This document shows, piece after piece, positions 56,488 through 58,979 of a DNA stretch of 64,000 nt. Position 1 is the stretch's first letter; each line of letters opens with the position of its first letter. Source of the stretch: Proteiniborus ethanoligenes (GTDB lineage: Bacteria > Bacillota > Clostridia > Tissierellales > Proteiniboraceae); the NCBI RefSeq assembly GCF_900107485.1, contig NZ_FNQE01000022.1:1-64000 (forward strand). Reading direction: 5' to 3'. Both the position numbers and the translations under genes were made by a program. Under the pieces are notes generated by a model that was not told the DNA's origin, did no database searches, and saw nothing but the letters and a program-made list of their open reading frames with translations.

Positions 56488-56865
56488 ATGTTTATATCTA
56501 ATATTATGCCAGTACTGACAATGCTTTTTTTTGTCAGCCTAATTGGATACATACTAGTTGTTTTAAAAGAAAAACTTTTTTTATCAGATAATACGATAAT
56601 AATAGGAAAAAAAGCTGTAACACAGGAGCATATAAATGAAACAGACATGAAGGTATTCACAATTGGAGGAATTAAGATTAAATCAGGTGATGAAGTAAGA
56701 TTGGTTTTGTTAAACAACAACAAAATAGATGGGATAGTAATTGGTGCAAAAGCCAAAGAAAAGGAGCTTATGATGGTAACATATAAAGATGAAATAAAAG
56801 CTTTTGAAGTTAAAGAAATAAGAAAAATAAAAGTTATTAGCAAGTATGGAAGATTTTTCAAATAG
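56488..56865 (+). CDS. Uncharacterised membrane-anchored protein
   Basis: A 125-residue protein with one N-terminal helix (about 5-26), then a soluble, Lys- and Ile-rich beta-type domain (IGGIKIKSGDEVRLVLLNNNK read in parts near residues 57-77). I do not recognise the family. ATG 56488 has only a weak AGG ribosome site. The next gene is an HlyD-like factor 114 bases later. It could be linked to that envelope protein, but nothing proves it. Confidence 0.65.
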   Translation: MFISNIMPVLTMLFFVSLIGYILVVLKEKLFLSDNTIIIGKKAVTQEHINETDMKVFTIGGIKIKSGDEVRLVLLNNNKIDGIVIGAKAKEKELMMVTYKDEIKAFEVKEIRKIKVISKYGRFFK

Positions 56866-56978
56866 AAGCTTTAAAAGATAAAAAATATTTTTTAATTGTA
56901 CTAGGATAATTTTTGTTTTATTCATGAAGGAAATAAAGAATATTTGAAGAACTATTTATACAATGAAGAGGTGGTAAT

Positions 56979-58291
56979 ATGTCTCAAGAGAAAAGAAAAA
57001 AAAAAGAGTAATACGTAAAAGGATAAGAGTAGCTTTATTAGTAATAATAGCTGCATATTTTATTTTTCAGATGCTTCCAGTGTTTTCTATATCAAATTAT
57101 AAAACTATTACAGTAGAAAGTGGAAAGCTTGAAGATATAGTTTCTTATAGAGCTGTAATAATAAAAAATGAGTCTATATATAAATCTGAATCAAATGGGA
57201 CAGTAACCTTGTATAAAAAAGAAGGCGAAAGAATAGGCAAGGGAATACAAGTTGCCAAAATTGATAAATCAGAGGACCATAGTTTATCGAAAGAGTTAGA
57301 AGAAGTAAATAAACAAATAGAATTATTGAAAAACACATCAGATAATAAAGATATTCTAGAAAAAGATAAGGAAAAAATACAAGAAAATCTAGATAAGGTT
57401 ATAGATGAGCTACAAACTAGAATTTTAAATGGAGATTATAATGATGCATATGTTTATAAGAATACTTTAATGAAAAACTTTGGTAAGGACCTTATAGTAA
57501 CTGGACAGAATAACCTTGCTTCTCAGAGTCTCGAAGGTCTAATAAATCGAAAAAATGAAATAATTAAAAATATAGAAAAATGGAGTATAGTAAACTATTC
57601 TACAAAAGGCGGAATAATAAGCTACGAATTAGATGGACTAGAAGAGATATTTTCAGTTAGTAGGATAGATGAATATAAACCAGGTGATTTTAGAATTATT
57701 GACGAAAAAAACAGCAATGTAACAGAAACAGATAATGTAAAGTACGGAGAACCTGTATACAAAATTATAGATAATTATAGATGGTATGTAATGACTGAAG
57801 TTGACGCAAAAGAAGGAGACAAGCTAGAGGAAGGTAAAATATCTTATGTAAAAATTAATGGTGATGATAGAAAATTAACCGCTAGAGTTATTAAAGTATC
57901 AAAAGAAAAAGATAAATATTTAGTTGTCTTTATGTTTACAGATTTTTTCCATGAATATTACAAAGAAAGATATATTGATATTAATATAATAAAAAACACA
58001 TATGAAGGATTAATTATACCAAACAAAGCCTTAATTGAAAAAGATGGAGTAGAGGGTGTTTATATAAAGGATATAAGTGGCATAGTAAAGTTTAGACCTG
58101 TAAAAATATTAGCTAGCAATGAAGAGCATACTATTGTAAGCGAAGGCGAGGGTATTAGTAACAGACAAATTGAGATTGTTATTAATGGAGAAAGTAAAAA
58201 AGCCATTACTATACAGATGTTTGATGAAGTATTCACTAATGGAAACAAGATGAAGGAGGGACTAATAATAAATCAGCCAGGAGGGATATAA
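56979..58291 (+). CDS. HlyD-like membrane fusion protein, start and body in different frames
   Basis: The body (406 residues from ATG 57071, open to 58291) looks like an HlyD/membrane-fusion protein: a lipoyl-like hairpin region (about 25-50), coiled coil (about 75-110) and beta-barrel parts. The missing N-terminus, a basic stretch and a membrane helix, is read in the same frame from 57008. However, its only good start is ATG 56979, with GAGGTGG upstream, and that is in another frame and stops at 57009 after ten codons. A run of ten A at 56996-57005 lies between; one more A joins the frames. Slippage, phase variation or a sequencing error can explain it. It precedes yggS-sepF-ylmG-ylmH-divIVA. 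Confidence 0.72.
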
Positions 58292-58292
58292 A

Positions 58293-58979
58293 ATTAATCT
58301 TAAAAGAAATATAGAAAATATTAGAGAAATTATAGTTAAAAATACTGCCCAAAAAGGATTAAGCTCTGATTATATTAATCTAGTTGCAGTTACGAAGACA
58401 ATAGCTGTTGATAAAATTAATGAGGCTATATCATTAGGTGTAACTCATATTGGAGAAAATAGAGTTCAAGAAATACAAAAAAAGTATGAGCTCGTAAATA
58501 AAGAAGCTAAATGGCATATGATAGGACATCTTCAAACCAATAAGGTAAAGCATATTATAGATAAGGTTCATATGATACATTCATTAGATAGAATCAGCTT
58601 GGCTAAAGAAATACAAAAAAGGGCAGAAGAAAAGGACATTGACATAAGCGTACTAGTTCAAGTTAACATAGCTGAGGAAGATTCAAAGTTTGGACTTAAA
58701 AAGGAAGAAGTCATTCCTTTTATTAAGTCTATTGGAGAATTAGATAGAATAAAAATAAAAGGCTTAATGACAATAGCACCATATGTAGAAGAGCCTGAGG
58801 AAGTAAGATGCGTTTTTAGAGATTTAAAAATCTTATTTGAATGTATAAAAGAAATAGGGTTGAAAAATACCGACATGAAATATCTATCTATGGGAATGAC
58901 TAATGACTTTGAAATTGCTTTAGAAGAAGGTGCAAATATTATTCGTATAGGTACAGGTATTTTTGGAAAAAGAGAATAA
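58293..58979 (+). CDS. yggS: YggS-family PLP-binding protein (YlmE), probable ATT start
   Basis: Pyridoxal-phosphate homeostasis protein (YggS/PROSC family), 228 residues. The PLP lysine is Lys35 in LVAVTKT, followed by GENRVQE near residue 54, WHMIGHLQTNK near residue 73, and a late SMGMTNDFEIAL. The frame is open from 58272 with no ATG, GTG or TTG before Lys35. The first canonical start (ATG 58518) would delete a third of the barrel. ATT 58293 sits seven bases after GGAGGG and gives the family's normal start, so an AUU initiation codon is inferred. The gene leads the sepF cluster. Confidence 0.85.
   Translation: MNLKRNIENIREIIVKNTAQKGLSSDYINLVAVTKTIAVDKINEAISLGVTHIGENRVQEIQKKYELVNKEAKWHMIGHLQTNKVKHIIDKVHMIHSLDRISLAKEIQKRAEEKDIDISVLVQVNIAEEDSKFGLKKEEVIPFIKSIGELDRIKIKGLMTIAPYVEEPEEVRCVFRDLKILFECIKEIGLKNTDMKYLSMGMTNDFEIALEEGANIIRIGTGIFGKRE

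Follow-up and report, generated by a model that had tools for sequence, protein, structure and literature searches.

Among the closest described systems is tssM1 of Citrobacter rodentium, a chromosomal gene for an envelope protein in which, according to the source passages on this site, RNA polymerase slips on an A11 run in ~20–25% of cases to give the full-length protein (PMC4256274). There the slip site is deep within the gene and the unslipped product is itself a large and needed variant of 807 residues (PMC4256274), whereas in the HlyD-like gene described here the slip would fall within codons 6–9, on an A10 run, and the unslipped product would be a 10-residue peptide. The long product of Shigella flexneri mxiE likewise requires slippage, although on a run of Us and in the gene of a virulence activator rather than of an envelope protein, and the source passages on mxiE contain no genus-wide comparison of run length (PMC1088944). 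In Thermus thermophilus dnaX, a conserved-type A9 run is described as a site of polymerase slippage, as we propose for the present gene, but slippage there leads to a shorter product (PMC1088944, PMC5009743). Ancient poly-A frameshifts in Blochmannia and Buchnera offer a parallel of another kind, in that frameshifted genes are reported to persist under selection and to be decoded with the help of slippage; however, these are reduced, AT-rich endosymbiont genomes that are rich in such runs (PMC5009743), while the bacterium considered here is free-living and avoids them. Finally, the −1 ribosomal frameshift of Escherichia coli dnaX is also placed at a poly-A site with tandem Lys codons (PMC5009743).

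Two further points from the cited sections of this literature bear on how such sites are recognized. In both E. coli and Buchnera, the common polymerase error at A/T runs is described as the addition of a single nucleotide (PMC5574713). Baranov et al. take avoidance of long runs in a genome as a sign that the species slips at them, and a kept run length together with a kept open reading frame (ORF) layout as a sign of purposeful slippage (PMC1088944). Among the papers listed, mostly from the open literature and screened by title and start of abstract, we found no report of slippage in a HlyD-like or clostridial envelope gene, and the main text of PMC3711429 contains neither "HlyD" nor "Clostridi". 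The split gene would be a new case of a known kind, genes that depend on programmed transcriptional slippage.

Results

The window, that is, the whole 64,000-nt stretch of DNA analysed here, is part of contig C22 of the Proteiniborus ethanoligenes genome (G000; 3.16 Mb in 69 contigs). A sequence-only reading of it had described an ATG at 56979 with a good ribosome site that runs into a stop at 57009, an A10 run at 56996–57005, and a gene body open in the frame reached by adding one A. These coordinates and this description proved correct, and the open body was borne out by the sequence and by a protein family match (Table 1). The body frame is joined to that of the start codon (56979–56981) by one extra A in the run and opens at 56978, right behind a stop. 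It holds no ATG, GTG or TTG between that position and an ATG at 57071, which sits in the membrane helix without a Shine-Dalgarno motif (SD). Body-frame starts were rejected, there being neither a canonical codon before the helix nor an SD. In G000 the zero-frame TAA overlaps an AUA of the body frame. Upstream, a small ORF (56488–56865) has a hydrophobic N-terminus and matches no family above cutoff; locus L025 has a similar ORF end (SKYGKFF) ahead of its HlyD-like gene.

Table 1. Features of the split HlyD-like gene, in window coordinates
Feature	Position	Strand	Evidence
Shine-Dalgarno GAGGTGG for ATG 56979	56968–56974	+	Sequence; GAGGTGG also present in both relatives (G001, G002)
Zero-frame start ORF, MSQEKRKKKE, stop TAA 57009–57011	56979–57011	+	Sequence; N-terminal residues retained in both relatives, with silent changes
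A10 tract, candidate slip site	56996–57005	+	Sequence; exactly A10 in 3/3 genus genomes; G000 has 3 A10 runs in all
HlyD-like body, shifted frame, stop TAA 58289–58291	57005–58291	+	PF12700, E 5.4e-81; dN/dS ~0.13–0.18
Probable membrane helix VALLVIIAAYFIFQMLPVF, directly after the tract	57029–57085	+	By eye from the translation

The body (57005–58288) matches PF12700 (HlyD_2) with 272.9 bits, above the Pfam gathering cutoff of 25.1, while its 105.5 bits against TIGR02828, a putative membrane fusion protein, lie under the NCBIfam cutoff of 154.4. No solved relative was found by sequence at E up to 0.01. The next gene is yggS (TIGR00044 match), and the neighbourhood includes genes that, by their translations, we take to be spoIVA-, SepF-, YggT-, YlmH- and DivIVA-like.

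The family sample consists of three species of one genus of anaerobic bacteria, namely G000 and two relatives (G001, G002), each with a single copy of the HlyD-like gene. The SD, the ATG, the exact A10 and the one-base offset are identical in all three, so that run length is kept together with ORF layout; the earlier reading had proposed comparing tract length in related strains, and the comparison made here, between species, returned A10 in each. As these genomes have a common ancestry, they do not count as independent events. On the 5′ side of the run, the zero-frame starts (MSQEKRKKK, MSQEERKKK and MSQEERKKK) show silent changes from species to species and are similar to N-terminal sequences of in-frame relatives, for example MSKEKRDKRRKKKK and MSQEKRKQRRKRKK. 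On the 3′ side, the three species pairs, with body identities of 57, 60 and 71%, gave NG86 dN/dS values of 0.18, 0.17 and 0.13 (dN 0.26, 0.24 and 0.16; dS 1.39, 1.44 and 1.25, in the same order), and YN00 gave 0.09 for the G001–G002 pair. Protein sequence is conserved under purifying selection on either side of the run, given the silent N-terminal differences, the in-frame-like N-termini and the low dN/dS of the body. The position of the zero-frame stop is not shared, lying near the start of the helix in G001 and G002.

Across the order, Tissierellales, HlyD-like matches were present in 191 of 249 genomes. The 5′ ends of 142 were read, with 138 entering the statistics and four extra ones all in frame; the other 49 were partial, not fetched or outside the matches listed. 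Classes were assigned by reading, with the in-frame class rechecked start by start and five doubtful copies confirmed as in frame on a further recheck, and yielded 122 copies with an in-frame start and an SD-like motif, eight in frame without such a motif, and eight with no usable in-frame start. The last eight are the three genus copies, G051 and G191 (all A10), G055 and G177 (A8), and G181 (A6-G-A7); seven of them need one more A, and G181 is offset the opposite way, its start (locus L168) being displaced by one base too many.

Scored from −120 to +60 of the match, A10 occurred in 5 of 138 copies, with none longer, and in-frame copies reached A9 at most; all five A10 copies were out of frame, as against 3 of 133 with shorter runs (Fisher 1.4e-7, or 4.9e-5 when the genus is counted once). 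G051 and G191, the latter a draft judged on its 5′ end and on a frame test that flags it, carry the same offset at A10 and belong to other families. Since these families also hold in-frame copies, the A10 split state probably arose at least three times. G055 and G177, with A8, fall one base short where their in-frame sisters carry A9, and may represent recent indels or errors. Within genus g36, the near-identical 5′ ends of L159 (G177, A8, out of frame) and L155 (G178, A9, in frame) differ in this way, through a recent indel, an error or phase variation. Class-wide, matches were found in 315 of 391 genomes; among the matches listed, 30 loci comprised the window's own and 29 others, and after two short loci read at a wrong offset and six loci from within the order were set aside, none of the 21 class loci outside the order was split at an A run.

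Long A runs are strongly under-represented in G000. Under a first-order composition model derived from the 64-kb window and extrapolated to the genome, ~116 runs of A10 or longer and ~328 of A9 or longer are expected on both strands, against three and 39 observed (the latter being 42 matches less three double counts). All three A10 runs lie on one strand of the contigs, and the two besides the focal one are in frame within their ORFs: one begins an ORF that is presumably spoIIIAE-like and the other lies within one that we take to be oadG-like. A simple downstream-frame test flagged the focal run as well as the corresponding runs of G001, G002 and G051. In G000, no gene is split at any of the 38 remaining A9+ runs, so that a genome riddled with such breaks can be rejected. 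Nor is a gene split by the other A10+ runs of G001 (3), G002 (8), G051 (2) and G042 (3), or by the 7 of 15 that were tested in G191; one G002 run flagged by the test was discarded, as the gene that begins directly behind it has a separate SD and ATG. G002 carries called runs of up to A20 as well as in-frame A10 genes.

In the window, no ATG, GTG or TTG is present close to the start of the downstream yggS gene. Its start region (58279–58295) shows AGGAGG at 58279–58284 and, 8 nt on, ATT at 58293. We surveyed relatives (L001–L061) with a simple rule, using order loci with enough flank: 29 of 38 had no canonical start 2–14 nt past the SD and instead carried AUU (23) or AUA (6) at 6–8 nt, and one relative (G220) has ATG at the same position. 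Among 26 other loci (21 outside the order and five of family f4 inside it), 22 had a canonical start and four were left without a call by the rule. The pattern looks like a conserved near-cognate start, of which the papers listed contained no report by title and start of abstract.

Discussion

We consider it likely, on the sequence comparisons above, that the HlyD-like gene is intact yet obligatorily recoded by polymerase slippage on A10, and that the cell probably has to slip there to make the protein. RNA polymerase would extend the run by one non-templated A in some transcripts; where the run reads A11 (or, equally, A8 or A14), the SD-supported start would be in frame with the body, giving a product with a basic N-terminus, the membrane helix and the HlyD-like domain, while templated A10 transcripts would yield the 10-residue peptide only. 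With a fixed fraction of transcripts productive, the protein level would be held down, and expression would be graded because slippage implies graded output. By analogy with the C. rodentium site, we would guess that between a tenth and a third of the transcripts are productive. We infer all three elements, namely the slip at transcription, its efficiency and any regulatory value.

Several observations are consistent with this mechanism. Seven of the eight split copies lack one A, which is the direction of polymerase error on A runs. The scarcity of long A runs suggests that the genome avoids them and that its polymerase or replication is sensitive to them, and the split gene shows the signs set out by Baranov et al. 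With ten As, the run at its frame junction also exceeds the minimum of nine A or T for a gene of this kind. Purifying selection on the two parts speaks indirectly for production of a trans-frame protein.

The best surviving alternative is that the ribosome, not the polymerase, slips, moving −1 on A AAA AAA over tandem Lys codons. The zero frame does read this heptamer in phase, with two Lys codons in tandem, and a −1 step would reach the same frame and make the same protein as one extra A. However, a ribosome would need just seven As, whereas the genus retains ten and the same number recurs in G051 and G191. A downstream stimulator was rejected, as the 80 nt after the run form no unusual fold in the three species (z −0.65, 1.11 and 0.15, for folds other than pseudoknots). 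The only SD is that of the start itself, 21–24 nt upstream of the possible heptamers, a longer distance than the roughly 10 nt of dnaX. E. coli dnaX has an in-phase A AAA AAG plus stimulators, neither of which was found at the A10 site, and A AAA AAG, which is more slippery for the ribosome than A AAA AAA, is not in phase at the tract. The absence of downstream structure and of an SD close upstream, together with the retention of ten As in the genus and two other lineages, leads us to favour transcriptional slippage (+1 A) and to regard −1 frameshifting as unlikely.

Phase variation would have the tract change length at replication, with A11 cells ON and the assemblies showing OFF cells. Homopolymers do mutate, and the close pair in genus g36 (G177 and G178) differs by A8 to A9. 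Yet random phases under selection for ON predict that some copies would be in frame at A11. None of the 138 has A11, whereas A10 recurs in all three species and in G051 and G191, a comparison made between species. We therefore judge this explanation very improbable. The sequence-only reading had listed transcriptional slippage, −1 ribosomal slippage and phase variation together; the first of these is now favoured, A10 being kept and recurrent, and the last disfavoured by a constant length across three species.

That reading's main alternative, a homopolymer or assembly error concealing a true A11 and an in-frame gene, fares slightly worse still. The difference is one base within a run of ten, the G002 assembly combined short reads with Nanopore R9.4.1 (PMC10652958), a platform weak at homopolymers and hence a real caveat for G002, and single drafts (G055, G177 at A8, and G181) do show plain indels or errors in HlyD-like genes. 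Nevertheless, one and the same gene would need to be affected in three assemblies and in two further lineages, with no gene split at the 38 remaining A9+ runs of G000 or at the A10+ runs read elsewhere in G001 (3), G002 (8) and G051 (2), and the long called runs and in-frame A10 genes of G002 speak against it as well. Stable slippage is favoured over error because the exact A10 and its offset are found under purifying selection in all three genus genomes and recur in two lineages. Hardly credible, lastly, is a decaying gene or translation that begins past the tract, whether by reinitiation or at a non-AUG codon: the AUU apparently used by yggS indicates that weak starts may work in this operon, and a TAA overlaps AUA in G000, but dN/dS far below 1 rejects decay, reinitiation is unsupported because the stop position is not conserved, none of the body-frame starts has an SD ahead of it, and the N-terminus read in the zero frame is retained at the protein level.

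If transcriptional slippage on A10 is confirmed, the case would concern a chromosomal gene that is not mobile and does not come from an endosymbiont, with a sole full-length product that depends on slippage throughout a genus, and the same slip-dependent state would recur within one gene family. Gene finders would label such a split gene a frameshifted pseudogene. The family also provides a natural comparison between in-frame copies, with runs up to A9, and slip-dependent copies at A10. More tentatively, and with considerable doubt, the hlyD-like/yggS pair of the order could form a decoding-throttled operon, its first gene held down by an obligatory polymerase slip with several independent origins and its second by a conserved AUU/AUA start. 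Such an operon would fix how much envelope protein and PLP-homeostasis protein is made beside the sepF-divIVA region, and that dose could track polymerase behaviour, ATP supply or IF3 stringency.
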